Positions 14,098-62,272 of a DNA stretch of 64,000 nt are shown piece after piece. Under the pieces are notes generated by a model that was not told the origin of the DNA, searched no databases, and was given only the letters and a program-made list of their open reading frames with translations. Positions within the stretch are counted from its first letter, which is position 1, and each line of letters starts with the position of its first letter. The DNA is taken from contig NC_087380.1 in assembly GCF_963675165.1 (NCBI RefSeq), positions 822,303-886,302 on the forward strand, written 5' to 3'. Source of the stretch: Halichondria panicea. Its lineage: Eukaryota > Porifera > Demospongiae > Suberitida > Halichondriidae. Both the position numbers and the translations under genes were made by a program.

Positions 14098-14100
14098 TTT

Positions 14101-18061: not shown

Positions 18062-18098
<37 letters not shown>

Positions 18099-26065: not shown

Positions 26066-32092
<6,027 letters not shown>

Positions 32093-32474: not shown

Positions 32475-33876
32475 CTACACATCATCCAGAAGTGGCTCTC
32501 TATAATCAGTGGCATTATAGTATTGACGCTGCTGCGTTGCATTGCCCAACGTCACTTCCTGTGTTGTCACTTCGTTCCTTCCACTTTCTATGAGTTCATC
32601 TTCTTGTATGCTTGTATACATTTCTCGTTTCTTGGCGAGCCTCTGAAGCTTGGGTCCGACTTTCTTGGCTATGTGGAAGATTATAATACAAGCAAACTGC
32701 AGGAGAGCAATACAAACTGAGGTAGCAGTCACTGGATTGAGGGTGTCATTTTGTCGGACATCTTCCGATTGTATTTGATAAAACAAGAATGCTCCACCTA
32801 AGATGATGAGGTTAAACAGATACAATACTTCAAGCACAGATGCAAACCATTGCTTGTAGAGATAGCCAACAAAGGATGTGTAGACTAGCAGGAGTGTAGC
32901 TATAATGGTCATTACCAGTATGTTAGCATTCGGATTGGATGTTGAGGTTGTTGAGAAAACAATCAATATCACTACGCGTGAGATGAGTAGAATCCCCGTC
33001 CACATTTGATGCTGTCGCTTGTCTTTGAAAGGACCGTAAAAAGTATCAAAAAACGGCATGAATGTGTTAATCCAGCAAAGGGGTCGGTAGTCTGACTTGG
33101 CTTTTAGGAAGGGTACTAGAAGGAGAGTCAAAGTGAATGGCAACCAAAACAATAGCATAAAGAGTAGTGCCACCACCATTAAGACAATGTGTCCCCGTGT
33201 TGTTCCATATTCAACATTTCCATCCAGGGACCAAACACTGCGAATCGAACCATCAGAGCCACTAATGTCAGATGGAGTAAACACATTTGTGATAATCCTG
33301 AACAGCTTCCCATAAGATAGGAGGATGAGAGTAGACAAAACAGCAACAGAGTTTCTACCAAAGAATCGAGTGGCTTTTATGGAATACCGAGACACTAAAA
33401 TGATGAGACCAGCAATGCACCAGATGTAGACTGGAAACACGAACTGTAAACCACTTTTAGTTACTTGATCCAAATTTTGAATAAAACAAGTCTCAATACC
33501 AAAGTCCAGATTAATCCAAGCTATAGGCACAGTGATGATGTAGTAGCCAATGTTCTGTCTGCCCTGCTGTGGGAACAATATAGCATTGTTAATCCACACA
33601 ACATTTGCGTAGAATATCAGTCCATTTATGGTACCATTGGCAACTGTGAGGTTGAAGAGTGTAATCATAGCAACCAATAAAATCCCGAGGATGGCGAACA
33701 CAATCAATAGAGCAACATAACTATTGTCATGACATTGTATGCACCTATCACCTCCTAATTGCAGGCTGTAGTTGCCTTTACATCTCCCACACAGTATTCC
33801 AGCACGGTTTGAGCTGCACTGCGAATCAGGGGATGTCAAGTGAACAGATATTGCAGACCTAGTGCAGTATTCACTA

Positions 33877-36800
33877 CACTGTAAAAACAGGGTGGTGACC
33901 GTCACTACCAAATGTGGTGATGGTCACTACCTAAGCGAATCACTACATGGTGGTGATTTATGTATGTGGTGATCCTCACTACCAATCTCAGTGACGGTCA
34001 CTACCTAAGTCCTTCACCAACATAGCTCAATACCAACTGTGGTGACGGTCACTACCAAAGTCCTTCACTACATTCAACCTCCGCGATGACTCCTAGATCC
34101 TAAGTCCTTCATCACAGTGTGCATGCAGTGGTACCTCTCACTTAACTTACTGTTCCCTGTACCTTCTCCTGTGTGTGTCACAGCTCCATTAATTATTATT
34201 TTATAGATAGGCATGCAGCATGCAATGTGATACTTTTAATATTTCATGGTGAAAGTCACAAGTTGTCATTTTTACGGTCTATCCTGCTACCGTCGAAGAC
34301 CAAGTCAGAAGAATACAACGAACTATAAAATAATATTCTATATCAGTGTATGACGACTGTTTGGTCGGCTACTTACTATAATTATAATTATACGATAATG
34401 TAATGGTGTCTTTTTAATATCCACCACTGACTGTAAACTTGAAACAACATGAAGTTTTACCCAACAAACTTGCAGTACACAATTATAATATTGTTCTTGT
34501 ATAGCTACAATTGCTCCTCCCCTAACAATGATGACAAACTGGGACATAAATAATACACTATTCCCGACCACTCCCAACAGGTACAGACGTAAGCTTTGGT
34601 TGTAACTTTAAGGCAATCAGCATCAATAATAATTATGCCGTTAAATCTAAGGGAGTGACAAACTCAAGCAGATGCTTGATGGATCTAGTTTGCTGACTAA
34701 GTATAAAGGCTGCAAAGAGGCCCCATGGTGCCCTGATATCTCACTAAGCTTTTTTGCCTGAGCAGCATTCCATATTCTGCAATAAAAGAGAAGCATGAGA
34801 TTATCAATCCATAGACGTATAATGTTACTGCTAGCTTGAACAGTTACAATGGCATATCTGCATTCATATTAAGGCCAGTACACAATAATAAGATTTTACC
34901 AAACAAAATAATTAACAATTGATTCACACACGTATTTACAAATACAATTACTAGTTGAAGCGATGTATTAATTGTGTAACATCTTTGAAAAGAGGTTTCT
35001 GTACCTGGTCGATCAACACGCAACACGACTTACTGCTAACCCGTACCAGGTAGATCTAGATTTAGTGGTCTATTTTACAGAAACTGAGTCACCAAGACAT
35101 AGTCAACACGCAACCCGGCTTACTGTTAACCATAATTGCCTCAGTAAAACAGTTCATGGAATGCTTTTACTATAAGATGTTACACGACATCAACATGCTC
35201 CATATCTAAGCTACATGATTCAACACTATTCATCCACACACTACTATTCCTTATCCTTTGGTAGCAGCAATATAAGACTGCCAAATGCCTTTCCTTGTCA
35301 CTGAATTGAACTGTAATAGGAAGATCTAGTTAGCTTGCTATAGCTCCTTCCATGTCCATATCTTCACTTGCGCGCTCTTGTTTGTTGAATAGACCTATGA
35401 CCAAATAAGGGCACGTGCAATTATGCAGCTGCAGATTTGCAGCTGCACACATCAACAAAAATTATTTGCTGGAGTTTTTAAAGAAGCAGACAAGTTGAGC
35501 TTTTAGAGAATGCTTTGAGAGTTGTTTGACAAAACTGTGTAACTAGGTAAGTTCCTCAACATGCTGCACAGTTTAAATTAATATTTTATGCAGAACTGAA
35601 TTTCTCCTGAAGGACAAGCAAAGCGCAAGTAAACACTTCATTAGGGCTTAAACAAGGGAAGACCAAAGCCCATTGCCCTAAGCTTCGTTCAGTATGCACA
35701 ACACAAGTGAGTTAATTAACTATACTAGTTCAGAAGAAGTAGGGACTTCACATTGTAATTGTAATACTTCGAGCTTCCAAGCTAACCCTCTCAGGATTGT
35801 AGGGCTTACTCTACATTCCTGTACTCTCATAATAATTGTCCATCCTAAAATCGTCCATCCTCTTTTGTTAATGCAGTAAAATTTATAGAATTCGAACTAC
35901 TGATGCTTGTACGTATAAAGTAGTCTTCAATAGAAGCCGGTCTCAAATAGTAGCCTCAGTGAATTTTGAGGCTATGTGTCTCTGCACTTTCAGCCATATT
36001 AATACTGGTATCTACAGTTGCAGCTTAATTGTTAGGTTCAGTGAACTTTGAGGCTATGTGTCTCTGCACTTGGCAGCCATATTAATACTGGTACGGTTGC
36101 AGCTTAATTGTTAGGTACCGTTATATGCTTGAAGGCCGCACTCAAATAGTAGCCTCAGTGAACTTTGAGGCTATGTCTCTGCACGTGGTTGATTGGTATC
36201 TACGGTAGCAGCTAGCTAGGGTAGCAGCTTGCTTAAGTAGTGCTTTTAGAAGACTTTCTCATGGCATAGTTCGAGTAAAAATAACTAGCTGGGGCTAATA
36301 AACACCTCTCTTGAACAATGTGCTCTCTCGAATTGTAGCCTCCTTTGTCAGCAAAATGAACATTTAGTAGCCATGCGCACAGCCTCTGATCAAGCATATA
36401 CATACTAATAATATTATTATACAGATGAGCGACATAACAGTAGTTGTGTTTGTGTGTGTATGTGACTGTCTGTCTGTGTGTAGATTGCCATAGCTGTTCC
36501 AATGAACACGAAGTGCAAGTATAATGTAAAGGCTCTATAGCCATTGCATCATTCCCGAGTTATGGGTAATTTTGCTCTAATACTTGGAATGCCGTTGCAT
36601 GCAGTGTTTTGTCTTTAAGTGTCGCAGCAATCATGTCATCATTATGTCCCGCTTGGGTTGTATCATAGCAACTGGGTGGAGTTTCACTACTCCGTTGCCT
36701 TAAGGGCGCACTGATTTTGTTACAAACAGCCAAAAATAAGTTAGCAATGGGAGGACAGATGGGTAGGCTCGTTACACATGGACAAGTTAGTGCGTAGCGC

Positions 36801-38707
36801 TAGAAGTTTAGCACTGGCTATACAAGCTATAATAATATGCACACGCTTTTCGTTCATTTTCAATAGTTTTTAACTGTTTACTAGTCCTTGCAAGGTGAGT
36901 TAGCTTAGGTATATATAGCAAGCATTTTTCATTTCAGTAGATATAATTATAATTATAAAATTTATGGCAACGTTAAACCATCCTTGGCCTTGAGACTTTG
37001 CCTTCGTCCTCGGAGGTTTATTGCCATAAATAGTGGACAAGGCATCAGCACCTGCAGCGCGTTTATTTATACTGTTATTGTTGTTACACACTATTGCGTT
37101 CAGTAACTGTTGTAATTAACTTGCAGGATATGAAGTTAAAAAAAACGTGTGGAGCAACCATACTACTGGACACCTTTAAGTATAGACATAAATCAAGGTA
37201 TGTGCATGCTGCTGCCGTATTGCCACAATTTGTTGTCAGTGATTAATATGTTAGTTCTGTTAGTCCTGCTTTTGCACACAAAACAAGAGTGTAACAGTTC
37301 ATTTTGTTCCAAAAATAATTGTCTTACTTCAACCTCTCTTCGTATCACATCTTTGTACTTAGCCTATAAAGTCAGCAAAAGATTTGTAGAATTGTTGTTA
37401 CTAGGTTACTAAACACCCCCTAATCTGTATGTATATAAATTGTGCTTGATCAGAGGCCGCTCTTACAATTATAAAGGTTGAATAGTAGCATCTCAATTGC
37501 ATCTTTATTGGTAGCCTCAGTGAACTTTGACCCTCGCTGAGACATATCTGCAGTGGGAGCCATGCTTATTGATACTGCACGGTATCTATGTGCCAGTTAG
37601 CTTGGTAGCAGCTTGCTAGTGCTTTAGTTAAGAGACTGTCCCATGGCGGAGTTTGAATGTGTGCAGATGAAAGAAAATTGTACCTATATTGGCCTTATGA
37701 ATTGTAGCATTTTTTGCCAGGAAAATAAGTAACCGCGGCCTCTGATCACGCAAATAATTATGAATCTGCCACCTGTAGCACATTGACCTTAATTTTCAGT
37801 ATGATTAGCAAGTTGTTCCTCTTCAGAGTTTTAGGCAGACCCATTGTTAACATTCATTTTGAATTATTTATAGCAAGCTATTAATTGTTTTGACAAGGCT
37901 TGCAGTATAGCAGTTCTTCCAAACCTTATTGTTCTGCTCACAATAATTGATTACTGCTCTATATAGAGTAATAAGAATTTGCATAGCCTCCCTGGCTCTC
38001 CAGTGTGCTGTTCAGGTATACCACTATAGTCCGGGCCGATACTTCTTCTTGTAGACATAATTGTGCCTGCTATTTTCTGTAGCTATAATTGGCTCAGCTT
38101 CACGCATTGTTTTCATACTTCAGTATTTGTGACATCATGGATTACTTTATTTGGCTTATAATTAATTATACATAGCAGGTAATTACGAAAACTTACCAAC
38201 GAAAACGTAAACGTGGTTTACCGGTACACATGCACGTATAATTGAAGCTCAGTAGGTATGCAAAAGTTTTGTTGTTAATCATGCGATATCCCCCGGCACA
38301 TAATCTAATTTGTATAATTATACACTTCCAACCTACATAGTTGACTCTATTACAATGAAATAAACATACTTTCTCCTTCATGCATATACAGGAGGAGGGA
38401 GGAGGTTGGGATGTAAAGACAGCCAAGAACTGATGATCAACTCAGGCCATTAGACACTGTCATTTTATACTCTGTTAGGCTAGTAAGCATAATGCTTGTT
38501 ATTATTTTCTGTGCACATTTTCAGAATTTTTGTATAGTGATTTTTACTAGTTCTGGTGATGTTCACTACCTAAATGTAGTGATCGTCACTACTTAAATGT
38601 AGTGATTTGAAAAAGTGGTGAGGGTCACCAGTCGATTTGCGGTGACTATTGTGGCAGCCGTTTCACTACCTTTTGGTGGTGACGGTCACTTTCCAGTTTT
38701 TACAGTG
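33877..38707. mobile_element. 4.83 kb inverted-repeat element inserted in R1
   Basis: It starts CACTGTAAAAACAGGGTGGT and ends with the inverted partner AGTTTTTACAGTG. TA is duplicated at 33875-33876 and 38708-38709. Both ends carry many subterminal copies of the near-palindrome GTGACGGTCAC followed by TACC (33900-34060 and 38560-38690), as expected of transposase binding sites. The AT-rich interior has no open frame above about 105 residues and no transposase I recognise, so it is non-autonomous. Repeats starting GTAGCCTCAGTGAA with TTTGAGGCTATGTGTCTCTG recur near 35945, 36030, 36145 and 37510. A smaller inverted-repeat unit sits at 34974-35185. Confidence 0.85.
34974..35185. mobile_element. 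Nested inverted-repeat unit
   Basis: It is bounded by GTGTAACATCT and its inverse AGATGTTACAC. It contains two direct copies of CAACACGCAAC..GGCTTACTG-type sequence. It lies inside the 4.83 kb element. Confidence 0.5.
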
Positions 38708-40737
38708 TAGGACAGTACTGGTACCAGTAGTATACGTCTGTTCCTTGTTCGGCAGTGTCCACTCCTACCCATACAGTTCCTTCTCTAGTGATAATGCCAG
38801 TATGGTTTTGAATCTCACAAGTTAACATCAACTGCTTACTGTATTCGTCGCAACCGCACATACTTGAAGTATTAAGCTGAAACCCCAGTGGACACTTATC
38901 GATAGTGATGTTAATGAAGATGGCCGTATGGAGAAGAGCTGCACACGGTGCTGGGGAGTACATACATGCAGCGGAGTATATGTTATTTACACTTTCTTTA
39001 ATTATGTCGTCTTGATTGCCTTGAACAAACGATTCTTCAACAGAGAGGCTTAGTTGAAGGGTCCTGTTTCTTTGGTTGGACAATACTGTGTAGGTTAGTG
39101 TCGTGCATTGCTCGTAGTCATTGATAGATTGTATATGTTGACCATCATTGATACTTCCAGCCTGCCTATCCAGTACAGTAGCAAACACAGTTCCTGTTAC
39201 TCTACTAAAGTTAAACCCCACAAGAGCTACAGAAGTCTCAAAGCTCTCCCCTGGAAATGTTATCTTGTTTAATACAAGGTACGTACTGTTTTGTGTATCG
39301 TTTACACAGAAACACACTCGAGAAGGGTTTGATGCAAGTCGAGATGTACTCGGTACTGAGTCGTCAAAATAAAAAATACTATTCTCTGAAACTGAGCATT
39401 TCTCCTCAAAGTATGATACTTTTGTTACTCCAAAAATGTCCCTTCCACCGAAACTAGCATTGTTCCCAAAGAACGTCACTCGAGTATCACCACTGGTATT
39501 GTTATAAAAGCAAGGTTCATAAAAGTTAGAGATAACGTCTTGCAAAATTCCGTTCTCCACAATAACTAGTAGCTGTGGAGGGAGAGGTGGTTCTGTAGCA
39601 ATATAGATCCCCCCACCGTACTCCAGAGCTGTATTGTTCTCAAAACGTGTAGTAGATCCTGAATCAAATATCACTTGTGATTGATACAAGGCCAGACCAC
39701 CTCCTCTTACTGCAATGTTGTTAACAAACACATTCTCTCCTGACAACTGGAAGGTACTTTGGTAGGCTAGGATTGGTGTTCCGTTGTTGTTATCGAATGT
39801 ACAGTCCTTGAAAATTGTTTCTTCTTGATTGAATACCCATATTCCAACGACTCTGTTTCGTGTGAAACAACAGTGATCTATTTCATTCCTATCTTTTCTT
39901 ATTAGCACAACTCCAACATCATTGCTATCAATCCAAGAGCTTCGCAGTGTAATGCCTGAGCGATTTGATAGAATGCCGATACTATTATCAGTTATGTTGG
40001 AATTGACAATAGTTACATTTGGTGTGTTAACAGTATATACTCCATACAAATCATTCTGAAATATCACGCTGTCCTCAATCAAAACTTTCTTTCCTGCAAT
40101 GACCCAAACTCCCATATAGGTGTGAGATATAGTCGACTTTTTGATTACTATTGAGCTGTCAGCAATCGGGTCTTGCGTGTTTTTACGCAGTACCAAGCCA
40201 CCACGATGACCAAAAAAGCTACACCATCGGAAAGTAGCTGTAAATCCTACAGAATCAGATACAGAATCAGATACAGATAGTAGAACATTCTCAAACAAAA
40301 TTTCTGCGATCAATACATTTGATGATGCGATACTAATCAAAGAATTAGTAGGGTATAATTGACCAATAACCTTCGGGCGTTGTCCCAGGTTTGGAAGTGC
40401 TGGCTGCAAGGTTATATTGTTAGTATAAATACTCAGGGTCCTATTGAGATTGTGAACTCCCTTCAGGAATATCAGAGTGATGTTGTTAATGTGGTCAGAT
40501 AAATTTCCGTGCTGAGCATAGTGGTCCAAGGTGTCGCAAGGTTGAGGACAGTCAGGTGGGCCGGCTGGGAGGGTTGGGGTGACATAGAAGGTCTCTGCCA
40601 CGCAAGGAGAGAGGAGACCAGCTGTCACTAACAGGCCGAGTAGTTGAAGCATCTTGTACATTGCTGCTTGCTGAACAACTGTACCATAGCGCGCTAGCTC
40701 ACTAAACTTTATGGCTTCTTGTAGAAAAACGGGCGTG

Positions 40738-42654: not shown

Positions 42655-42842
42655 CTGTGTGTGTGTGTGGTGTGTGACAGTGTGGTGGAGGTATGTGTGC
42701 GTGTGTGAGGGGTACCTTCTCGTCCTGTACATAGAAGCAAAAATACATAATTATTATAAATCAGTTCTTAATTTCTCTTATGCAGCACAATCAAACTATA
42801 ATTAATATACACACGTAAATCAGTTTTCTCTACATATAATAA

Positions 42843-45239
42843 TGTTGCTACACATCATCCAGAAGTGGCTCTCTATAATCAGTGATATTATAGTATTGAC
42901 GCTGCTGCTTTGCATTGTCCAACGTCACTTACAAGTCTCAATATCAAAGTCCAGATTAATCCAAGCTATAGGCACAGTGATGATGTAGTAGCCAATGTTC
43001 TTGCCCTGCTGTGGGAACAATATAGCATTGTTAATCCACACAACATTTGCGTAGATAATGAGTCCATTTATGGTACCATTGGCAACTGTGAAGTCAAAGA
43101 GTGTAATCATAGCAACCAATAAAATCCCGAGGATGGCGAACACAATCAGTAGAGCAACAGAACTATTGTCATGACATTGTATGCACCGATCACCTCCTAA
43201 TTGCAGGCTGTAGTCGTCAGCACATCTCCCACACAGTATTCCAGCACGGTTGGAGCTGCACTGTGAATCAGGGAATGTCAAGTGAACAGCTATTATACAG
43301 ACCTATTGCAGTATTCACTAGGACAGGTATACCAGTAGTATAGGTCTGCTTCATTTTTGACAGTGTCCACTCCCACCCACACAGTTCCTCCTCGGTGATA
43401 ACGCCACTGAGTATGGTTTTGAATCTCACAGGTTAGCATTCACACTAGCCTCGAGACCAGGCCGATTAAAATATGTATTTTAATCGGGCTGGTCTCGAGG
43501 CTACATTCACACATACCTGAAACCCCAGTGCAGAGATCTATTACTCTATCTCTGCCCAGTGGACACTTATCAACAGTGATGTTAATGAAGATGGTCGTAT
43601 GGAGAAGAGCTGCACACGGTGCTGGGAAGTGTGTAGCGTTGCATGCAAAAGAGTATATGTTATTTACTTTAATTATGTCGTCATGATTGTCTTGAAAAAC
43701 GATTCTTCAACAGAGAGGCTTAGTTGAAGGGTCCTGTTTCTTTGGTTGGACAATACTGTATAGGTTAGTTCCGTGGATTGTACATAGTCATCGATAGATT
43801 GTATATGCTGATTATCATTGATGCTTCCGGCCTCTCCATCCAGTACAGTAGCAAACACAGATCCTGTTACTCTGCTAAAGTTGAATCCCACAATAGCTAC
43901 GGAAATATTAAAGCTCTCTCCTGGAAACCTCGTCTCGTTTAATACAAGGTATGAACGGTTTTGACATTGTGGTGTATTGTTTACACAGAAACACACTCGA
44001 GAAGGGTTTGATGCAAGTCGAGATGTACTCGGTACTGAGTCGTCAAAATGAAAGATACTATTCTCTGAAACTGGACATTTATGATTATAGTATGATGCTT
44101 TTGTTAGTCCAAAGATGTCCCTTCCACCAAAATTAGCCCAAAGAACGTCACATTCAGAGTATCACTATTTGTGTGTTCACTGTAATAAAAACATGTGCTT
44201 GAAATTAATTCATCAAAATCTATGCTCTCCAGAGCAACTCCTAGCTGTTGAGGGAAAGTTGAATCTGTAGCAATGTAGATCCCCCCACCATACTCCCTAG
44301 CTGTACTGTTCTCAAAGCGTGTAGTCGATCGTGAATAAAATGACACTTGTGATTGATACAAGGCCAGACCACCTCCTCTTATCGCAGTGTTGTTAGAAAA
44401 CACATTCTCTCCTGACAACTGGAAGGTACTTCCGTGGGCTAGGATTGGTGTTCCATTGTTGTTATCGAATCTACAGTCTCTGAAAATTGCTAGTTGACGG
44501 ACATTCACTAACCATATTCCAAAGAATCTGTTTCGTGTGAAAGAACAGTTATCAATTATATTAAAGTGTTTTTCATTTTTATAATAATACCAAAACTCCA
44601 AAATCATTGCTATCCACTTGACAGTTTTGGAGTGTTATGCCTGAGTCATATGATACAATGCCAAAACCATTAATATGACTTATGTTGGAATTGACAATCG
44701 TCACATTTGATATACTTTGAATTAATAATGCATATACTCGTCCAACTTGTAGTGTCCTCAATCAAATAATTTTTTACTGAGTAGGCATTGACTCCTACAC
44801 TAGTGTGAGTAGATCTAGATATAATGGAATTTTTGATTGTTATTGAGCTAACATCCAGGTCTGTAACTCCTTCATAATATAGCTCTAGTGAAACATTCTC
44901 AAACAAAAGTCCTTCGATCAATGTATTTAATGCAGTTATTGTAAACAGAGACCCACCATTATTAGTGTCACATCGACCAATAATCTTCGGGCGTTGTCCC
45001 TGGTTTGGAATTGCTGGCTGCAAGATTATGAAACCAGTAAGGTAGTCACTGAGATTATGAACTCCCTCCAGGAATATTAGAGTGATGTTGCTGTGGCCAG
45101 ATAAATTCCCGTGCTTAGCATACTGTTCCAAGTCAGCTAGGGCTGGGAGGGTTGGGGTGACATGGAAGGTCTCTGCCATGCAAGGAGAGAGGAGACCAGC
45201 TGTCACTAACAGGCCGAGTAGTTGAAGCATCTTGTACAT
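42843..45239 (-). pseudogene. R2: deleted copy of the beta-helix/multi-TM gene
   Basis: The start (MYKMLQLLGLLVTAGLLSPC) and several ectodomain pieces are recognisable but in different frames (45239-44670, 44761-44579, 44607-44104, 43996-43673). The CPQPC segment after VTPTLPA is deleted. A 58-bp foldback element sits at 43446-43503 and extra bases follow it. After the third membrane segment (INLDFDIETC) the sequence jumps straight to the last 30 or so codons ending EPLLDDV, an internal deletion of about 1.1 kb that also shifts the frame. It is certainly non-functional as a receptor. Confidence 0.92.
43446..43503. mobile_element. TAGCCTCG foldback element in R2
   Basis: A 58-bp near-perfect palindrome starting TAGCCTCGAGACCAGGCCGA. 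Exact 9-bp flanking repeats CATTCACAC stand at 43437-43445 and 43504-43512, proving a transposition event. Confidence 0.9.
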
Positions 45240-45337
45240 TGCAAAACAACAGCAAGCTTAGCTTTTGGCTTCTTGCAGAAAAACGGGCGTGGCTGGTACA
45301 CAGAAGAGGAGGGGGTGGGGGAATGGTTAAACCCCTA

Positions 45338-45469: not shown

Positions 45470-45505
45470 TAGTCTCTCTCATCGTGTCTCAAGCCATGGA
45501 TCAGA

Positions 45506-51300: not shown

Positions 51301-51651
51301 TTCTGTGATCAATACATTTGATGATGTGATTAAAATCACTGTTATGTCTAATCGACCAATAATCTTCGGGCGTTGTCCCAGGTTTGGAAGTGCTGGCTGC
51401 AAGATTATAAAACTAGTATTAACAGTAAGGTAGTCGCTGAGATTGTGAACTCCCTCCAGGAATATCAGAGTGATGTTGTTGTGGCCAGATAATAAACTCT
51501 GGTTTTGAGTAAACTGGTCCAGTGTGTAACAAGGTTGAGGACAGTCAGCTGGGGCTGGGAGGGTTGGGGTGACATAGAAGGTCTCTGCCATGCAAGGAGA
51601 GAGGAGACCAGCTGTCACTAGCAGGCCGAGTAGATGAAGCATCTTGTACAT
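48310..51651 (-). CDS. R3: beta-helix/multi-TM receptor, intact
   Basis: One exon, 1,113 residues when started at the ATG at 51651 (YKMLHLLGLLVTAGLLSPC signal peptide). An in-frame upstream ATG at 51741 would add 30 residues before the signal and is less likely. Order: signal peptide; ETFYVTPTLP and CPQPCYTLDQ; beta-helix-like repeats with NNITLIFLEG, SNVTIVNSNISHN, NNIAVRGGGLALYQ and GGGIYIAT; a second ectodomain part; a Cys-rich linker SSNRAGILCGRCKGNYSLQL; then about nine or ten membrane segments (from LLIVFAILGILLVAMITIF to VCIALLQFACIIIFHI) and a tail ending DYREPLLDDV. There are many N-glycosylation sites in the outer part. A glycosylated surface receptor or sensor is likely; I know no characterised homologue. 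R1 is its closest relative in the window. Confidence 0.85.
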   Translation of the reverse strand: MYKMLHLLGLLVTAGLLSPCMAETFYVTPTLPAPADCPQPCYTLDQFTQNQSLLSGHNNITLIFLEGVHNLSDYLTVNTSFIILQPALPNLGQRPKIIGRLDITVILITSSNVLITEILFENVLLYVFEIHVATIRSCSFCGHGGGLELGNYQDPIADSSIVIKNLTISQTYRGVLVLAVEKVLIEDSVIFQNVFYGVTTANTSNVTIVNSNISHNGIGILSNGSGITLRSSWIDSNDVGVVLITKDKKEIDHCCFTRNRVVGIWLFNQEETLFRDCRFDNNNGTPILAYKSTFQLSGENVFVNNIAVRGGGLALYQSTVAFDSGSTTRFENNTALEYGGGIYIATEPPLHPQLLVVTVEIELLQNFISNFHEPCFYNNASDTQVTFFGNNASFGGRDIFGVTEVSYFEEKCSVSENSIFHFDDSVPSTYRLASNPSRVCFCENDTQQCQNRSYLVLNEMKFPGESFETSVVFVGFNFSRVTGTVFATVLDGQAGSINDNQRTQSVYDYEHCTTLTYTVLSNQTSRPLQLSLSVEESFVQGNPDDIIKESVSNIYSLACNATHFPAPCTALLHTAIFINITVDKCPLGFQLNNTSSMCGCDEYSKQLMLTCEIQNHTGVITREGTVWVGVDTVKNKTDLYYLYQYCPSDYCTRSAIPVHLTSPDSQCSSNRAGILCGRCKGNYSLQLGGDRCIQCNDNSSVALLIVFAILGILLVAMITIFDFTVANGTINGLIFYANVVWINNAILFPQRNIGYYIITVPIAWINLDFGIETCFIQNLDQVTKSGLQFVFPVYIWCIAGLIILVSRYSIKATRFFGRNSVAVLSTLILLSYGKLFRIITNVLTPSDISGSGGSIRRVWFLDGNVEYGITPGHIVLMVVALLFMLLFWLPFTLTLLLVPFLKAKSDYRPLRWINTFTPFFDTFYGPFKDKRQHQVWTGILLISRVVILIISASTSTSNPNANILVMTIIATLLLLFTSIVGYLYKQWFASVLEVLYLFNLIILGGAFLFYEKQPEDVRQNDTLNPVTATSVCIALLQFACIIIFHISKTVGPKLQRLAKKKRQEMDNTSVQEEELIQSGRYKVTTQEVTLGNATQQRQYYNATDYREPLLDDV

Positions 51652-51950
51652 TGCTGCTTGTTGAGCAACCATAGCGACTAAGTCTAGCTCAATTAGCTTC
51701 TTGCAGAAAAGGCAGACTCGCCAGCACTTTTCGCTGTGCAACAGTGACTACTTGTGAGTCTACACGGCAGACCACCCCGGCATAATCGGTCATGTGCCGC
51801 CCTCAATTATAACCGTAAATACACAATGCACCTTATAGGAACCATTTCAGGAGTGCCTGACAAGACTCAACACAGAATGATAAAAGAGATACAAAAAATG
51901 GGCACATGATCATTGATAAAATCTACAATCCTAGAGACTGTTGTCATCGT
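51652..51950. other. R3 upstream region
   Basis: No gene is seen. The part from about 51868 matches the region downstream of the K1 and K3 stops. Confidence 0.4.
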
Positions 51951-53077: not shown

Positions 53078-53524
53078 TGTGTGTGTGTGGTGTGTGTGGG
53101 GGTGGGGGTGTGTGGGTAGGGGTGTGTGTGTGTGAGAGTGTGTGGTGGTGTGGGCGTGTGTGTGGGGGGGGGAGGCTGTTATACATGTACACTTTATGCA
53201 GTGAAATAAACACACAAAAACTAACGACCACAGTCAATGATCGATTAGGCCTTGCCCAAATTATGCTCAGCCTATTAGTTTAGTCTCCAAGTCTCATGCA
53301 TGCATTGTACCTATTAGTTTTAAATTCTTACCAATTAATTAATTAGCAATTATTACCCAAAAATCACAACAAGAATTATAAACTATAATTTATTATGTAT
53401 TATTATACCTCATAAATCAGTTCTTAATTTCTCTACATTATGTTAAATTATGCAGCACAATCAAATTATAATTAACATGCACACGTAAATCATTTCTTCT
53501 CTACATACAATGTTAAATGTTTTG
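53078..53524. other. Spacer between K2 and R4
   Basis: A GT/GTGG-rich low-complexity tract (about 53078-53170) and AT-rich sequence nearly identical to 58520-58924. No gene is seen. Confidence 0.5.
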
Positions 53525-56500
53525 CTACACATCATCCAGAAGTGGCTCTCTATAATCAGTGGCATTATAGCATTTACGCTGCTGCTTTGCATTGTCCAAC
53601 GTCACTTCCTGTGTTGTCACTTTGTACCTTCCACTTTGTATGAGTTCCTCTTCTTGTACGCTTGTGTTGCCCATTTCTTGTCTCTTCTTCATGGCGAGCC
53701 TCTGAAGCTTGGGTCCGACTGTCTTGGCTATGTGGAAGATTATAATGCAAGCAAACTGCAGGAGAGCAATACAAACTGAGGTAGCAGTCACAGGATTGAT
53801 GGTGTCCTTTTGTCGGACACCTTCCGGTTGGGTTTGATAAAACAAGAATGCTCCACCTAAGATGATAAGGTTAATTAGATACAATACTTCCAGCACTGAT
53901 GCAAACCATTGCTTGTAGGGATAGCCAAAAATGAGTGTGTACAATAGCAGGAGTGTAGCTATAATGGTCATTACCAGTATGTTAGCATTCGGATTGGATG
54001 TCGAGGTTGATGCGGAAACAATCAATATCACTACACGGGAGATGAGCAGAATCCCCGTCCACACTTGATGCTGTCGCTTGTCTTTGAAAGGACCGTAATA
54101 AGTATCAAAAAACGGCATGAATGTGTTAATCCAGCGAAGGGGTCGGTAGTCTGACTTGGCTTTTAGGAAGGGTACTAGAAGGAGAGTCAAAGTGAATGGC
54201 AACCAAAACAATAGCATAAAGAGTAGTGCAACCACCATTAAGACAATGTGTCCCGGTGTTACTCCATATTCAACATTTCCATCCAGGGACCAAACTCTGC
54301 GAATAGAACCATCAGAGCCACTAATGTCAGATGGAGTAAGCACATTTGTGATAATCCTGAACAGCTTCCCATACGATAGCAGGATCAGAGTAGACAAAAC
54401 AGACACAGAATTTCTACCAAAGAATCGAGTAGCTTTTATGGAATACCGAGAAACTAAAATGATGAGGCCAGCAATGCACCAGATGTAGACTGGGAACACA
54501 AACTGTAAACCACTTTTAGTTAGTTGATCCAAATTTTGGCTGAAACAAGTCTCAATATCAAAGTCCAGATTAATCCAAGCTATAGGCACAGTGATGATGT
54601 AGTAGCCAATGCTCCGCTGTGGGAACAATATAGCATTGTTAATCCACACAACATTTGCGTAGAATATGAGTCCATTTATGGTACCATTGGCAACTGTGAT
54701 GTCGAACAGTGTAATCATAACAACCAATAAAATCCCGAGGATGGCGAACACAATCAACAGAGCAACAGAACTATTGTCATGACATTGTATGCATCGATCA
54801 CCTCCTAATTGCAGGCTGTAGTTGCCTTTACATCTCCCACACAGTATTCCAGCACGGTTGGAGCTGCACTGTGAATCAGGGGATGTCAAGTGAACAGGTA
54901 TTTCAGACCTAGTGCAGTAGTCACTAGAACAGTATTGATGCCAGTAGTATAGGCCTGTTTCATGTTTGGCAGTGTCCACTCCCACCCACACAGTTCCTTC
55001 TCTGGTGATGTAGCCAGTGTGGTTTTGAATCTCACAGGTTAGCTTCAACTGCTTACTGCTTTCGTCGCATTCGCACATATCTAAAGTCTTATTAAGCTGA
55101 AATCCCAGTGGACAGTTATCAACAGTGATGTTAATGAAGATGACCGTAGTGAGAAGAGCTGCACACGGTACTGAGGTATCGCTGCATTCATCAGAATGTA
55201 TGTTTTTTATACTTTCTTTAATTATATCGTCAGGATTGCCTTGAACAAATGATTCTTCAACAGAGAGCCCTAGTTGAAGGGGCCTGCTTGTTTGATTAGA
55301 CAATACTTTGTAGGTTAGCGTCGTGCATTGCTCGTAGTCATTGATAAATTTTATATGTTGACCATCACTGATATTTCCAACTTTCTTATCCAGTACAGTA
55401 GCAAACACAGATCCTGTTACTCTGCTAAAGTTAAATCCCACGAGAGCTACAGAAATCTCAAAGCTTTCCCCTGGAAACCTCGTCTCGTTTAATACAAGGT
55501 ATGCACGGTTTTGACACTGTGGTGTATTGTGTAGACAGAAACACACTCGAGAAGGGTTTGATGCAAGTCGAGAAGTACTCGGTACTGAGTTATCAAAATG
55601 AAAGATACTATCCTCTGAAACTGAACATTCATCATTGCCATATGACATTTCTGTTAGTCCGAAGATGTCCCTTCCACCAAAATCAGCATTGTTCCCAAAG
55701 AACACCACATTCGGAGTATCACCACTTGTGTGGTTATTGTTATAAAAGCAATGTTTACTTAAGGTAAATTTTAAACCTACATTCTCCAGAGGAACTAGCA
55801 GCTGTGGAGAGACAATTAAATCTGTAGCAATGTAGATCCCTCCACCATACTCCAAAGCTGTATTGTTCTCAAAACGTGTAGTCGATCCTGAATCAAATGA
55901 CACTGCTGATTGATACAAGGCCAGACCACCTCCTCTTACTGCAATGTTGTTAGAAAACACATTCTCTCCTGACAACTGGAAGATACTTCTGGAGGCTAGG
56001 ATTGGTGTTCCGCTATTGTTATTGAATGTACAGTCCTTGAAAATTATTGTTGGGTTTTGTTGACAGACATTCACTAACCACATGCATATTCTGTTTCGTG
56101 TGAAAGAACAGTTATCTATCATGATATTAAAGTGTTCTTCTATGTCTTCATTATAATATAGCACAACTCCAAAATCATTGCTATCCATCTGAGAGTTTCG
56201 GACTGTTATGCCGGAGTCCCATGATAGAATGCCGATACCATTAATACGACTTATACTGGAATTGACAATCGTCACATTTGGTATGTTTCGAAAAAATAAT
56301 GCATATGTGTCAAACTTAAATATCATACTGTCCTCAATCAAACAATTTTGTACTGATTGAACACGGACTCCTGCACTGGTCTGAGCAGAACTCGATATAA
56401 TTGAGTTTTTGATTGTTATTGAGCTGTCAACATCCAGGTCTGGAGGTACGTCACTATATAGCTGTAGTGAAACATTCTCAAACAAAAGTCCTTCGATCAA

Positions 56501-56860
56501 TGCCTTTGCTGATGCTATGATTTTCCAACCAATATCCATGTCACATTGATGACCAGTGTCCGCACGACCAATAACCTTCGGGCGTTGTCCCTGGCTTGGA
56601 AGTACTGGCTGCAAAATTATAAAACTAGTGTTAACAGTAAGGTAGTCGCTGAGAATGTGAACTCCCTCCAGGAATATCAGAGTGATGTTGTTGTAGCCAG
56701 ATAATAAACTCTGGTTTTGAGCATACTGGTCCAGGGTGTAACAAGGTTGAGGACAGTCAGCTGGGGCTGGGAGGATTGGGGTGACATGGAAGGTCTCTGC
56801 CATGCAAGGAGAGAGGAGACCAGCTGTCACTAACAAACCGAGTAGTTGAAGCATCTGCAT
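53525..56860 (-). CDS. R4: beta-helix/multi-TM receptor, intact
   Basis: One exon, 1,111 residues. Signal peptide QMLQLLGLLVTAGLLSPC, then ETFHVTPILP and CPQPCYTLDQ. The beta-helix part has its own variant sequence (IEGLLFENVSLQLYSD, SSISRINGIGILSWDSGITV, NNIAVRGGGLALYQ, ENNTALEYGGGIYIAT). The CSSNRAGILCGRCKGNYSLQ linker, about nine or ten membrane segments (for example LQFVFPVYIWCIAGLIILVS) and the ending DYREPLLDDV are almost the same as in R1, R3 and R5. The ectodomain between about residues 95 and 270 is strongly different from R1/R3 and nearer to R2. Predicted topology is an outside N-terminus with a short cytoplasmic or luminal tail; function unknown. Confidence 0.86.
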   Translation of the reverse strand: MQMLQLLGLLVTAGLLSPCMAETFHVTPILPAPADCPQPCYTLDQYAQNQSLLSGYNNITLIFLEGVHILSDYLTVNTSFIILQPVLPSQGQRPKVIGRADTGHQCDMDIGWKIIASAKALIEGLLFENVSLQLYSDVPPDLDVDSSITIKNSIISSSAQTSAGVRVQSVQNCLIEDSMIFKFDTYALFFRNIPNVTIVNSSISRINGIGILSWDSGITVRNSQMDSNDFGVVLYYNEDIEEHFNIMIDNCSFTRNRICMWLVNVCQQNPTIIFKDCTFNNNSGTPILASRSIFQLSGENVFSNNIAVRGGGLALYQSAVSFDSGSTTRFENNTALEYGGGIYIATDLIVSPQLLVPLENVGLKFTLSKHCFYNNNHTSGDTPNVVFFGNNADFGGRDIFGLTEMSYGNDECSVSEDSIFHFDNSVPSTSRLASNPSRVCFCLHNTPQCQNRAYLVLNETRFPGESFEISVALVGFNFSRVTGSVFATVLDKKVGNISDGQHIKFINDYEQCTTLTYKVLSNQTSRPLQLGLSVEESFVQGNPDDIIKESIKNIHSDECSDTSVPCAALLTTVIFINITVDNCPLGFQLNKTLDMCECDESSKQLKLTCEIQNHTGYITREGTVWVGVDTAKHETGLYYWHQYCSSDYCTRSEIPVHLTSPDSQCSSNRAGILCGRCKGNYSLQLGGDRCIQCHDNSSVALLIVFAILGILLVVMITLFDITVANGTINGLIFYANVVWINNAILFPQRSIGYYIITVPIAWINLDFDIETCFSQNLDQLTKSGLQFVFPVYIWCIAGLIILVSRYSIKATRFFGRNSVSVLSTLILLSYGKLFRIITNVLTPSDISGSDGSIRRVWSLDGNVEYGVTPGHIVLMVVALLFMLLFWLPFTLTLLLVPFLKAKSDYRPLRWINTFMPFFDTYYGPFKDKRQHQVWTGILLISRVVILIVSASTSTSNPNANILVMTIIATLLLLYTLIFGYPYKQWFASVLEVLYLINLIILGGAFLFYQTQPEGVRQKDTINPVTATSVCIALLQFACIIIFHIAKTVGPKLQRLAMKKRQEMGNTSVQEEELIQSGRYKVTTQEVTLDNAKQQRKCYNATDYREPLLDDV

Positions 56861-57285
56861 TGCTGCGAAACAACCGCGCGCAAGCTTAATATAGCTCTTG
56901 GCTTCTTCTTGCAGAAAAACAGGCGTGGCTGGTACGCGCGCGCAGTCATGCAGTCATGCAGATGACCGCATCCGATCATCGACTCTTTCTTTGTTACCTC
57001 CAACCAACCACAACAGTACTAACATTTTAGTGTTGGATACTAATCCTAAACAGAAACCTTTGACCTTGACTATATCCTCTTCTGGCATATATACATGTAT
57101 AATATAGCGGCCCCCCAGAGACTGGAGCATGGAATCAAGGCAATACAAAAACTCGGTCACACCTCAATCCGTGAATACACTTAAAATGGATGCACTCAAC
57201 ACAGAATGATAAAAGAGATACAAAAAATGGGCACATGATCATTGATAAAATCTACAATCCTAGAGACTGTTGTTATCGTTTATAT
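56861..57285. other. R4 upstream region
   Basis: No gene is seen. It should hold the R4 promoter. From about 57198 it matches the K1/K2 downstream flank. Confidence 0.4.
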
Positions 57286-58515
57286 TTTGATTTGGAGTGT
57301 TTCCCCAGCAACGCCATTAAGTTCAGTGAACCCCGCCTCTTTAGCAATGTCCAGAGCTGTTAGGCCGTCCTAGGAGGAGACAGAAGGGTTAATAGTGGAG
57401 GGAGACAGAAGTAGGCAGTGGATAGAGACACTAGCACTAGACATATGCAACAATTATGGGGATGGTATTAGAATGCATCATGCAAATAGCAACCCTTGAC
57501 TTACATTATCCCTGAGGCTGGTATCTGTGTGAGGGTGTGTGAGAAGTGACCCCACTATCTCTGTATGACTACTCTGGACTAGCAAACATGAGTGCTGAGG
57601 AGCCGTCTTACAGTCATGTGATTGTCATGTGACATGCTGGTACAGATATTGCCACACCCACCTTATCCCGGAGGTTAACGTCGGCACCTTTCTCAAGGAA
57701 CAGAGAGACCATCTCCAGAGAACCACTGCAGGCAGCCAACATCAGAGCAGTCCGTTGATCCTGACACATCAAACAAGTTATTAGCATTGTTCGTACGCTA
57801 TGTAATTATAGACACTGTTTTGGAGGTGTCTATAATCAATATGGAATTTAGAAGCTCAAAGGCCAGTACTGCTTTAGTCAGTATCCCGAGCATAGCCAGG
57901 GTACTATACAAGTGCCTGAGGGCTTCTAAATCATGGACACTGACGAAACAGTGTCTATAATTTATACTTGAGGCACTTTTCACTTATCAAATCTTATCAA
58001 CTAGTGTCTAAATATTACGTGGTACATGTGCTTGTGTGTGTTCAACAATGGATATACCGAACTGAATGCAAAGTATAATCATTATTGTGTAATGGTTGTA
58101 GCCTCACTATCACATACTATCACCAACATCACCATCTCCCTATTTGAACTGTCTATAGTACAGTCATTAATTTATTACTGTACACAATGCATGCTAATAA
58201 TACATTGTACTGCTAACTGGTATAGTGTTGCTAGGAGACAGGTTCACCTTGTCAGCTGCCTTGTTGATGTCCGGGCCCCCCTGTCCACCAGATGTCCCAT
58301 GATGTCTCTGGGCCCCCTCCCCACACAGGTGCTGATACAGCTGGGCTTTTAGCATAATTATACCCGTAAATTGTTAGGTGCTTTTCATCAATAAGAATAG
58401 AGTCATTCAGATGAATACATAATAACTAGCAGCAGTTGTATATATGCCGTGTACCTGTGTTCACCCACCTCCACACAACAAGCAGCTGCCAGCATCAGTG
58501 GAGTGTAGCCAGCCT
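57286..58515 (-). pseudogene. K3: KANK-like ankyrin fragment
   Basis: Third copy of the four-exon block. The second exon is best preserved (RTALMLAACSGSLEMVSLFL with a good TGTCAG acceptor). The last exon is shifted to FTELNGVAGETLQIKI. The first exon is interrupted by an insertion at about 58315-58450, so GHLVDR and GEHR are separated. Not functional as it stands. Confidence 0.65.
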
Positions 58516-58924: not shown

Positions 58925-61900
58925 CTACACATCATCCAGAAGTGGCTCTCTATAATCAGTGGCATTATAGGAATTACGCTGCTGCTTTGCATTGTCCAAC
59001 GTCACTTCCTGTGTTGTCACTTTGTACCTTGCACCTTCTTTGCCTGCATCTTCTTTTACACCTGTAATAATGTCTACTTCTGTTTTCTTCTTCTTGGCGA
59101 GCCTCTGAAGCTTGGGTCCGACCTTCTTGGCTATGTGGAAGATTATAATACAAGCAAACTGCAGGAGAGCAATACAAACTGAGGTAGCAGTCACAGGATT
59201 GATGGTGTCATTTTGTCGGACATCTTCCGGTTGGGTTTGATAAAACAAGAATGCTCCACCTAAGATGATGAGGTTGAACAGGTACAATACTTCCAGCACA
59301 GACGCAAACCATTGCTTGTAGAGATAGCCAACAATGGATGTGTACAATAGCAAGAGTGTGGCTATAATGGTCATTACCAGTATGTTAGCATTCGGATTTG
59401 ATGTTGAGGTTGATGCGGAAACAATCAATATCACTACACGGGAGATAAGCAGAATCCCCGTCCACACTTGATGCTGTTTCTTGTCTTTGAAAGGACCATA
59501 AAAGGTATCAAAAAACGGCTTGAATGTGTTAATCCAGCGAAGGGGTCGGTAGTCTGACTTGGCTTTTAGGAAGGATACTAGAAGGAGAGTCAAAGTGAAT
59601 GGCAACCAAAACAATAGCATAAAGAGTAGTGCAACCACCATTAAGACAATGTGTCCGGGTGTTATTCCATATTCAACATTTCCATCCAGGGACCAAACTC
59701 TGCGAATAGAACCATCAGAGCCAGAAATGTTAGATGGAGTAAACACATTTGTGATAATCCTGAACAGTTTCCCATAAGATAGCAGGATCAGAGTAGATAA
59801 AACAGCAACTGAGTTTCTACCAAAGAATCGAGTAGCTTTTATGGAATACCGAGAAACTAAAATGATGAGACCAGCAATGCACCAGATGTAGACTGGAAAC
59901 ACAAACTGTAAACCACTTTTAGTTAGTTGATCCAAATTTTGGCTGAAACAAGTCTCAATACCAAAGTCCAGATTAATCCAAGCTATAGGTACAGTGATGA
60001 TGTAGTAGCCAATGTTCCGCTGTGGGAACAATATAGCATTGTTAATCCACACAACATTTGCGTAGAATATGAGTCCATTTATGGTACCATTGGCAACTGT
60101 GAAGTCAAAGAATGTAATCATAGCAACCAATAAAATCCCGAGGATGGCGAACACAATCAACAGAGCAACAGAGCTATTGTCATGACATTGTATGCACCGA
60201 TCACCTCCTAATTGCAGGCTGTAGTTGCCTTTACATCTCCCACACAAATTCCAGCATGGTTCGAGCTGCACTGTGAATCAGGGGATGCCAAGTGAACAGG
60301 TATTGCAGACCTACTGCAGTAGTCACTAGGACAGTACTGATACAAGTAGTAAAGGTCAGTTTCATTTTTAGTGTCAATTCCCACCCACACAGTTCCTTCT
60401 CTGGTGATGTAGCCGGTGTGGTTTTGAATCTCACAAGTTAACTTCAACTGCTTACTGCTTTCGTCGCAACCGCACATACTTGAAGTATTAAGCTGAAACC
60501 CCAGTGGACAGTTATCAACAGTGATGTTAATGAAGATGGCCGTAGTGAGAAGAGCTGTACATGGTAGTGAGTTGTTGTTGCACATAGGGGAGTATATGTT
60601 ACTTACACTTTCTTTAATTATATCGTCTTGATTGCCTTGAACAAACGATTCTTCAACGGAGAGGCTTAGTTGAAGGGGTCTGCTTGTTTGGTTGGACAAT
60701 ACTGTGTAGGTTAGTTCTGTGCATTGTAAATAATCATTGATAGATTGTATATGTTGATTATCATTGATACTTCCAGTATTCTCATCCAGTACAGTAGCAA
60801 ACACAGGTCCTGTTACTCTACTAAAGTTGAATCCTACAAGAACTACGGAAATATTAAAGCTCTCTCCAGGAAACCTCATCTCGTTTAATACAAGGTATGA
60901 ACGGTTTTGACACTGTTGTGTATTGTGTACACAGAAACACACTCGAGAAGGATCTGATGCAAGTCGCGATGTACTCGGTACTGATTCATCAAAATGAAAC
61001 CATTTATCCTCTGAAACTGACCAATCATCCTCGTATGATACTTCTGTTAGTCCGAAGATGTCCCTTCCACCGAAATTAGCATTGTTCCCAAAGAAATGCA
61101 CTTGAATATTATCATTTTCATACTCTTTATAAAAGCAAGTTGGGAATAGGGGAAAGGAAATCAATTGCTTACAGGATATATCATTTTCCAAGGCAACTAC
61201 TAGTTGTGGAAGGAGAGGTGAATTTGTAGCAATGTAGATTCCCCCACCATACTCTATAGCTGTTTGTTCTCAAAGCGTGTAGTAGATCCTGAATCAAATG
61301 TCACAGTTGATTGATACAAGGCCAGACCACCTCCTCTTATTGCAATGTTGTTAGAAAACACATTCTTTCCAGACAACTGGAAGGTACTTTGGTGGGCTAT
61401 AATTGGTGTTCCGTTGTTGTTATCAAATGTACAGTCTCTGAAAATTATTTTTGAGATACTTAATAAGCATATTCCAAAGAATCTGTTTTGTGTGAAGGAC
61501 ACTTCAATCATTTGTGCATCACGCGGACTAGTTAGCATAACTCCAAAATCAGTATTATCAATTGAACAATTTTGGAGTGTTATGTTTGAGCCATATGCTA
61601 CAATGCCGAAACCATTAATATAGCTTATGTTGGAATTGACAATCGTCACATTTGGTACAACAATAATCGTTAATGCATACTTGTCCAACTTAAATATCAC
61701 ACTGTCCTCAATCAAGAGATCTGTTGCTGTGAAAGTGAATCCTACACGGATGGGAGCAAGTATAGAATTTTTAGCGTGAGATATAGTCGAGTTTTTGATT
61801 GTTACTGAGATTTTAACATCTTTCGATAATGATAATGCAACAAAAGGAACTAAGTACAAGCCACACCGTCGAATAACAAGTTTATAATCACGATTCCAGT

Positions 61901-62272
61901 TTATATATAGGTAAACATCAACCAACAAAAGTCCTTCGATCAATATTATTATTTGATGCACTGATATTTATAATTTAAATGTTGACTAATAACCTTCGGT
62001 GGTTGTCCCTGGTTTGGAAGTGCTGGCTGCAAGATTATGAGGTTAGTTTCAACAGACAGCTTGTTGCTGAGATCGTGAACTCCCTCCAGGAATATCAGAG
62101 TGATGTTGTTGTGGCCAGATAATAAACTCTGGTTTTGAGTAAACTGGTCCAGGGTGTAACAAGGTTGAGGACAGTCAGCTGGGGCAGGGAGGGTTGGGGT
62201 GACATAGAAGGTCTCTGCCATGCAAGGAGAGAGGAGACCAACTGTCACTAGCAGGCCGAGTAGATGAAGCAT
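58925..62272 (-). pseudogene. R5: frameshifted beta-helix/multi-TM copy
   Basis: Four frames cover the whole protein: 62272-61949 (LHLLGLLVTVGLLSPC to about PPKVISQ), 61961-61254, 61253-60208 and 60271-58925. Breaks lie near 61955, near 61262 (GCTGTTTGTTC where R4 has GCTGTATTGTTC) and near 60245 (CACACAAATTCC where R4 has CACACAGTATTCC). The normal MYK start has become ATA-CAA, leaving the next methionine. The membrane half (60271 on) is intact and nearly identical to R4. Three independent small indels suggest a pseudogene; assembly errors are possible but less likely. The last frame also has a changed cytoplasmic loop (TEVDIITGVKEDAGKEGARY). Confidence 0.8.

Follow-up and report, generated by a model that had tools for sequence, protein, structure and literature searches.

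The genes repeated in tandem in the window (the whole stretch of 64,000 nucleotides of Halichondria panicea DNA that was analysed) are likely to belong to a large receptor family of the cell surface that is still evolving, in which a beta-helix outer part is mounted on a module of about nine transmembrane (TM) helices, and whose copies are homogenised within arrays while old ectodomain segments are retained. The evidence comprises the architecture read from the sequence, the copy number, an uneven synonymous divergence (dS) along the gene, a conflict between the trees of different regions and one recent tract of near identity. The members are probably animal cell-surface proteins, and their best reading is that of surface recognition or chemosensory receptors, with a putative ligand and a presumed signalling function.

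Organization of the array and size of the family

As originally predicted, five copies (here A to E, corresponding to R1 to R5 of the original prediction) lie in one orientation in about 30 kb, all of them on the minus strand within positions 32475-62272 (Table 1). They are without introns, and only C and D are intact, the other three of the five (A, B and E) being broken. In copy B about 0.93 kb of the membrane region that is present in A is missing, and there are further breaks. Copy A is interrupted by an element of about 4.8 kb, judged young, with inverted arms of 39 nt that are 87% complementary; one 201-base end of this element was found at 12 places in the genome including its own, four of the others at 100%, and no stop-to-stop open reading frame (ORF) of at least 120 aa lies wholly within it. 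The array extends past the window with two further copies, F and G, both of which are open frames.

Within the genome the family occupies at least about 154 places on 16 contigs, a figure that is approximate and a lower bound because each search scored only part of the candidates. For this count, starts within 2.3 kb were merged and broken copies were included, copy A is counted twice and copy B is absent, and from some searches only rows judged new were added. Frames of at least 1000 aa, by the frame lengths that the search tool gives, were present at 59 of 72 places in one search and in 56 of 70 rows in another; in a further listing the tool's value for pieces of E (1135) is incorrect. A set of 32 family ORFs was built from 29 of the 50 rows of one search and three of another, after removal of fragmentary or broken copies and of rows truncated at the fetched edges. 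Searches of genome contigs and viral contigs gave no relative confirmed by the chosen peptide patterns.

Table 1. Array copies, their parts and associated features (window positions, except where prefixed by C4).
Feature	Coordinates	Strand	Remarks
Copy A (R1), C-terminal part	32475..33876	-	Cys-rich neck, membrane domain, tail
Element interrupting copy A	33877..38707		inverted ends and TA target duplication
Copy A (R1), N-terminal part	38700..40655	-	ectodomain
Copy B (R2)	42845..45240	-	broken
Copy C (R3)	48310..51672	-	intact intron-free ORF, 1120 aa
Copy C, C-terminal REPLL motif	48322..48336	-	conserved across the family
Copy C, residues 703-1055	48508..49566	-	membrane domain, nine-helix model, N-out/C-in
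Copy C, residues 641-715	49528..49752	-	Cys-rich CGRC neck; resembles DUF7630 weakly, under the Pfam cut-off
Copy C, residues 346-420	50413..50637	-	second variable island
Copy C, residues 96-270	50863..51387	-	main variable beta-helix part
Copy D (R4)	53525..56860	-	intact intron-free ORF, 1111 aa
Tract of copy D	53400..57200		one mismatch to copy G
Spacer upstream of D	57194..58327		0.1% diverged from the spacer below G (extended coordinates 71220-72353)
Copy E (R5)	58925..62272	-	full-length, four reading-frame pieces
Copy F	C4:888493-891849		open frame
Copy G	C4:895256-898591		open frame

Architecture of the proteins

In copy C a hydrophobic N-terminus is followed by the beta helix, a Cys-rich neck, about nine TM helices and a tail. 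The right-handed beta-helix model PF13229 passes its curated cut-off of 25.9 bits in both intact copies (C 65.8, D 55.5); across the wider family it matches seven of 23 members at E up to 10, in a scan whose HMMER filters discard most weak matches. The beta-helix-type Pfam matches of the family are Beta_helix, NosD and PMP repeats, the last of which (PF02415) match 22 of the 23 members at E up to 10, two of them well above the cut-off; POMP repeats were found in two of three proteins by an NCBIfam search. On the Cys-rich stretch the window copies reach 13.7-14.6 bits with DUF7630 (PF24633; cut-off 27 bits), and in a genome search four other family places pass narrowly (27.6-27.9 bits), two of which give 21.9-22.0 bits when scored as whole proteins.

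Hydropathy and charge favour nine TM helices over seven, helix 2 being weak; in the nine-helix topology K+R are higher in four of the five predicted inner segments and D+E are higher in the outer loops. The original prediction had described a beta helix, a CGRC linker and nine or ten TM helices without a characterised member that could be named; similar architectures do exist in print (PMC5168858; PMC10901506). The stretch most conserved among 26 distant members, residues ~681-880, lies in and between TM helices and retains charged and polar residues. The motif RE[PEDS][LI][LI] occurs in 25 of 35 tails as against 45 of 35000 shuffled tails; three of six motif-less tails are incomplete, since the rows concerned (L013, L040 and L041) are cut at the C-terminal end.

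For the membrane half no Pfam match near a cut-off was obtained, those to the membrane part or tail in the 23-member scan (FAM176, DUF4231 and MurT_C among them) being weak, below cut-off and limited to one member each, with the weak FAM176 match recurring in three of four close copies. PDB sequence searches gave no match apart from one at chance level. Since the membrane half matches neither Pfam near a cut-off nor PDB sequences, the signalling module may be new. Membership in the class C GPCRs was rejected, PF00003 (7tm_3) being absent among the 18 families listed for the 23 members at E up to 10; as a positive control, this model gives 123 matches elsewhere in the genome and none at the array genes of the window.

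Divergence and selection along the gene

The near identity of the Cys-rich linker and membrane half in A, C, D and E and the heavy divergence of residues ~95-270 had both been noticed by eye, and both are confirmed. In the membrane half D, A and E each have 92% protein identity to C (A and E aligned from the Cys-rich neck onward only), and pairs among A, C, D, E and F have dS 0.090-0.161, dN 0.024-0.044 and omega 0.17-0.36. Over residues 96-270 the same copies differ heavily in the alignment and dS rises to 0.305-0.688 in nine of ten pairs, values that depend on the alignment (D-E, for example, gives 0.363 in one and 0.518 in another). The predicted division of this part into at least two groups is also found: A joins C, while E is placed loosely beside D, F and a gene from a different contig, C15 (split 90/92). 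Residues 346-420 form a second variable island, and a comparable dS pattern is present in other clusters of the family.

The dN/dS comparison proposed for the ectodomain had a divided outcome: of the four pairs that were bootstrapped, A-C clearly exceeds 1 (residues 96-270, omega 1.89, bootstrap P 0.018), but there is no dN excess in the other three (D-C15, D-F and C2a-C2b). Over the ten array pairs, omega in residues 96-270 spans 0.59-1.89, exceeding 1 in three and falling below 1 in seven; in the tail it exceeds 1 in nine of ten, where dS is small. Polar sites are little more variable than hydrophobic ones, and not in all pairs (A-C 0.22 vs 0.16, D-F 0.36 vs 0.27, D-C15 0.31 vs 0.32, C-D 0.37 vs 0.39). 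Because omega is below 1 in most array pairs and three pairs are without dN excess, the diversification may be relaxed constraint.

Recombination and homogenisation

For residues 96-280 the C4 array as a clade is rejected (p-AU 0.012), D and F joining the C15 gene, whereas in the TM tree the array clade is supported (98/96) and the grouping D+F+C15, which had been suggested by the dS already seen, is rejected (p-AU 0.015). Eight sequences entered these trees and tests, G being omitted as equal to D and B as too fragmentary. Residues 421-640, which are also extracellular, group by array like the membrane half. In a mosaic run test A and C have a run of 55 shared polymorphic sites (0/1000 shuffles), and C-D, C-F and D-E likewise give 0/1000, with P uncorrected for the 21 pairs tested. 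The very uneven divergence, the several-fold differences in dS along the gene and the conflicting trees together indicate that recombination has acted, and purifying selection as the sole cause of the likeness of the membrane halves is rejected by dS and the trees. As the region trees conflict, the units are homogenised locally, with the N-terminal beta helix keeping older lineages, and since residues 421-640 follow the array, only part of the ectodomain escapes homogenisation.

Gene conversion in the membrane half with diversification outside, as the original prediction had it, thus agrees with the uneven dS and the tree conflict, but conversion is not limited to the membrane half. Besides residues 421-640, this is indicated by copies D and G, whose coding sequences differ by a single, synonymous base; G lies about 19.4 kb away, and the flanks of the shared tract are clearly more diverged, as in a recent whole-gene tract. 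Matching spacer blocks are even closer (JC 0.039-0.095 in 14 of 15 pairs), although these blocks lean toward likeness because they were chosen by BLAST match with gaps uncounted. In one C7 pair the pattern is reversed, residues 81-480 being identical.

Alternative explanations

Neutral birth-and-death, in which a loosely constrained outer ectodomain drifts and purifying selection holds the membrane domain without any selected recognition repertoire, would agree with the low omega of the membrane half, with omega below 1 for residues 96-270 in seven of ten array pairs, and with the broken state of three window copies, which also fits drift. This account is nonetheless unlikely: protein constraint alone cannot yield a several-fold higher dS in one part of a gene, nor conflicting trees, long frames are kept at many places in the genome, and one pair (A-C) has omega above 1.

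The beta-helix fold is frequent among polysaccharide lyases, and the proteins might be membrane-anchored feeding enzymes that degrade polysaccharides or modify carbohydrates, whose multiplication was favoured by selection for dosage or for a wider choice of substrates. Such a function is very improbable, since Beta_helix, NosD and PMP were found yet no pectate-lyase or GH28 family is among the 18 listed for the 23 members (E up to 10), and nine TM helices would exceed the need of an anchor. A third possibility, that the nine-TM part conducts as an ion channel or transporter and the large ectodomain acts as its sensor, would fit the conserved charged and polar residues in and between the helices, and the family may resemble multi-TM protist proteins with Cys-rich necks; with no channel family among the listed Pfam or PDB sequence matches, the likelihood of this function is put at the lowest of all.

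Proposed mechanism

Under the preferred reading as surface receptors, each protein begins with a signal-peptide-like segment and a right-handed beta helix, which forms the ectodomain; a Cys-rich neck connects this to about nine TM helices of N-out, C-in topology, and the short tail mostly terminates in a conserved RE-x-LL-type motif. The copy-variable parts of the beta helix may bind an external ligand (a glycan, or a microbial or conspecific surface), the Cys-rich neck would relay binding to the conserved membrane module, and the tail motif could be used for sorting or docking. The genes would multiply via tandem arrays, likeness within an array being maintained by unequal exchange and ectopic conversion, while divergent old N-terminal beta-helix segments would be retained or imported from other loci; the outcome would be a repertoire of specificities upon a common signalling chassis. 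Ligand binding, signalling and sorting are inferred, as is selection as the force that keeps the ectodomains diverse. Varied old outer ends with an alike remainder within a cluster are as expected of recognition receptors, and a recognition role is suggested accordingly. More tentatively, and with considerable doubt, the family could constitute a novel type of recognition receptor in animals, distinct from the GPCR, Ig, SRCR and NLR types, with at least 150 copies, joining diverse beta-helix ectodomains to one nine-TM signalling module, diversified in the germline by array homogenisation and inter-locus ectodomain exchange, and serving the discrimination of self from non-self or of microbes.

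Comparison with known systems

A receptor-like family as large as this one would, in a sponge, be a candidate for telling microbes or tissues apart, beside the expansions of NLR genes, of which Dysidea avara has 126 bona fide ones (PMC12909245, excerpts), and of SRCR-like genes (PMC4772301, excerpts). No paper describing this family in a sponge was found by title or abstract opening, in a search that took in few subscription papers; beta helix, pectin lyase and pectin do not occur in the excerpts of PMC12909245, PMC4772301 and PMC12716839 where they were looked up, nor does any of five terms in those of PMC12465263.

At the level of single domains, the family is like DUF7630 proteins in that four of its places narrowly pass the cut-off in the genome search and the window copies match weakly on the same Cys-rich stretch, but this is just a 45-residue domain of unknown function and the window copies are far under the cut-off. 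The likeness to chlamydial polymorphic membrane proteins (PF02415/TIGR01376) is one of repeated beta-helix coils; those proteins are bacterial autotransporters and have no membrane part in common with the family.

The nearest architectures in print, as far as the excerpts of these sources go, are the pectin-lyase-fold GPCRs of gut fungi and MRC2 of Tetrahymena. About 30% of the gut-fungal class C GPCRs, of which there are about 100 in three fungi, have a pectin-lyase fold, parallel beta-helix repeats and/or an EGF-like domain in a long ectodomain, followed by a C-terminal helical bundle, and sugar sensing has been proposed for them (PMC5168858, excerpts). The combination of a beta-helix or pectin-lyase-type ectodomain with a C-terminal helical membrane part is shared with the sponge proteins, but the fungal receptors have a 7-TM class C domain, whereas about nine TM helices are predicted here and the families listed for the 23 members do not include PF00003. 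In the mating-type recognition complex of Tetrahymena, MTA and MTB have five TM helices, a Cys-rich GFR and a variable outer part (PMC10901506; PMC3608545, excerpts), and MRC2 has eight TM helices and a pectin-lyase fold (PMC10901506, excerpts). These are likewise multi-TM surface proteins, with a Cys-rich neck in MTA and MTB and a pectin-lyase fold in MRC2, although the helix numbers differ and the likeness is one of description, not of sequence comparison. As far as those excerpts describe them, MTA and MTB also resemble the sponge family in carrying a variable outer segment on a common TM part with recombination among copies; theirs are joined by programmed somatic assembly, whereas here the genes are complete in the germline.

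The gene array

The genome carrying the window (C4:822303-886302) comprises 131 Mb on 39 contigs. The five receptors of the original prediction are present as five copies (A-E) of a single gene on the minus strand; only C and D are intact, the other three are damaged, and the array extends past the window to at least seven copies (A-G). One end (201 bases) of the insert that splits copy A was found at 12 genomic places including copy A itself, four of the others being 100% identical, and for this reason we take the insert as young. No long ORF lying wholly inside it was found.

Features of the array and of the neighbouring sequence (window coordinates)
Feature	Position	Strand	Description
Alpha/beta hydrolase-like gene	8542-10116	-	single ORF; Abhydrolase_5 match; signal-peptide-like start
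Similar segments	9884-11893; 14268-16028		similar to each other
Adjoining Sushi, Ig and FN3 exons	10962-25381	+	probably a separate adhesion-like receptor gene; hydrophobic segment near 24863-25381 without Pfam match
Tandem repeat	30598-30910		imperfect, 23 bp; directly below array
Insert splitting copy A	33877-38707		4.83 kb; inverted ends, TA target duplication
Copy B		-	about 0.93 kb of membrane region missing relative to A
Copy C	48310-51672	-	1120 aa, intron-free, open
RE-x-LL motif of copy C	48322-48336		kept while the rest of the tail changes fast
Copy D	53525-56860	-	1111 aa, intron-free, open
Copy E		-	reading frame in four pieces
Copies F, G	past window		both open

Family size and protein architecture

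Protein and family searches of the same genome gave at least about 154 distinct family places on 16 contigs, 99 of them in 26 clusters, a count in which copy A appears twice and copy B not at all, each search having scored part of its candidates. Open frames of at least 1000 aa were reported for 59 of the 72 first places and for 56 of the 70 rows of one later search. Since scoring reached 70 of 520 candidates in one of the two final queries and 73 of 523 in the other, and every listed match looked at was 67-91% identical (the query's own place excluded), the family is probably larger. Contig C6 holds 67 of the places; its group includes two members (L040 and L041) with Chlamydia-PMP-like repeats, and its reported open frames extend to 2847 aa.

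In copies C and D a hydrophobic, signal-peptide-like N-terminus is followed by a right-handed beta helix above the Pfam cut-off, a Cys-rich neck carrying LCGRC, and a C-terminal half of several helices. A nine-helix topology, N-terminus outside and tail inside, agrees with the charge rule when 32 family members are averaged: the inner segments hold 0.97, 2.88, 6.34, 1.53 and 5.69 K+R per sequence, as compared with 1.16 for the outer N-flank and 1.69, 1.47, 0.22 and 0.75 for the outer loops. The first inner loop is a poor fit, and helix 2 is weak. The variable tail closes with RE[PEDS][LI][LI] in 25 of 35 members (near variants in four, none in six, three of these being incomplete tails cut at the sequence edge), as compared with 45 of 35,000 shuffled tails, and we infer a sorting or docking motif.

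Each Pfam family that matched the membrane part (23 members, E ≤ 10) did so in a single member and not near its cut-off, and a PDB sequence search gave no match. A class C GPCR domain was rejected, none of the 123 PF00003 matches in this genome being a gene of the window array. Clusters of these matches lie at C3:343-434 kb and C4:7.23-7.30 Mb, many in open frames of about 700-800 aa. Both these class C GPCR arrays and the Sushi, Ig and FN3 exons next to the receptor array are in keeping with an animal.

Uneven divergence and conflicting histories

Among the ten pairs of copies A, C, D, E and F, the membrane half (residues 716-1050, copy C numbering) has a dS of 0.090-0.161 and a dN of 0.024-0.044, and the main variable part (residues 96-270) a dS of 0.305-0.688 and a dN of 0.262-0.531 in nine pairs, A-C being the exception (dS 0.075, dN 0.143). 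A second alignment lowered dS for the pairs with E (0.363-0.455) and left the contrast unchanged. Synonymous divergence is thus several-fold greater in the outer ectodomain, which excludes even divergence along the gene and, dS itself being uneven, rules out purifying selection on the protein as sole cause.

Gene parts with different histories can explain this unevenness. A locally raised mutation rate is a weaker alternative: it would account for the high dS of the outer ectodomain, but would leave unexplained the conflict between trees built from eight sequences (five from the array, one from contig C15, two from contig C2). In the tree of residues 96-280, D and F join the gene on C15 with support that is not strong (80/84), and an array clade is rejected (p-AU 0.012). 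Residues 421-640 follow the array (89/91), though also extracellular, as do residues 716-1050 (98/96); both reject D+F+C15 (p-AU 0.023 and 0.015), p values that are post hoc since this group came from the dS table. Near residue 90, A replaces D or E as the nearest relative of C, and C15 replaces C as the nearest relative of D. The longest shared runs of polymorphic sites indicate mosaics: shuffling gave 0 of 1000 in each case for A-C (residues 231-272) and, in the tail, for C-D, C-F and D-E, and 1 of 1000 for C-E (residues 51-75), P values being uncorrected over 21 pairs.

Selection on the ectodomain

An ectodomain with dN/dS below 1 throughout, which would argue against the diversification originally predicted, is nearly what was found. 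In residues 96-270 omega exceeds 1 in three of the ten array pairs (A-C 1.89, A-D 1.18, A-E 1.02), and in the second variable island (residues 346-420) in two. In a bootstrap of the outer ectodomain in four pairs, dN exceeds dS only in A-C (P 0.018); over residues 96-345 no excess was seen for D-C15 (P 0.58), D-F (P 0.92) or the two C2 members (P 0.996). Copy A now carries the young-looking insert. A concentration of substitutions on polar residues was not clearly found. In the tail (residues 1051-1120) omega exceeds 1 in nine of ten pairs, dS being small there; the last 40 codons hold zero synonymous changes across the five sliding-table pairs.

Homogenisation of the arrays

Conversion had been predicted for the membrane half in particular, a restriction contradicted by copies D and G, the spacers and a pair on contig C7. 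The coding sequences of D and G differ by one synonymous base in 3333, and their near-identity tract of about 3.8 kb, with diverged flanks, indicates that the entire gene was copied. Paired spacer blocks (JC 0.039-0.095 in 14 of 15 pairs, 0.001 in one; ungapped sites) are closer than the membrane halves, a closeness to be read with caution since the blocks were selected by BLAST. Within the stretch at extended coordinates 71220-76838 (L009/L010), G copies D, and the spacer below G matches the one above D at 99.9%. Gene and spacer thus stand in opposite order at the two sites, which suggests unequal exchange or permuted re-insertion.

Nine more pairs were checked. The C2:828-835k pair repeats the pattern, dS reaching 0.57 in the ectodomain and staying at 0.02-0.07 over residues 801-1120. 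Two pairs from the C4:2.8-Mb cluster show it less cleanly (dS up to 0.45 in one membrane window), three pairs of a C9 trio as islands, and the C2:2.47-Mb pair in mild form. The C7 pair, with identical residues 81-480, shows the opposite, and a C6/C11 pair on separate contigs lacks it. It seems fair to state that arrays homogenise their units, the N-terminal beta helix being often but not always exempt.

Putative function and comparison with known systems

We take these proteins, whose architecture, array, copy number and mosaic history are plain from the sequence, as surface recognition or chemosensory receptors that may bind ligands, signal and serve in self/non-self recognition. A variable outer beta helix would act through the Cys-rich neck on a conserved nine-TM transducer and its motif-bearing tail, while conversion, unequal exchange and the duplication of genes in tandem would renew the repertoire. 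The likeness to Tetrahymena MTA/MTB (PMC3608545) is one of described features.
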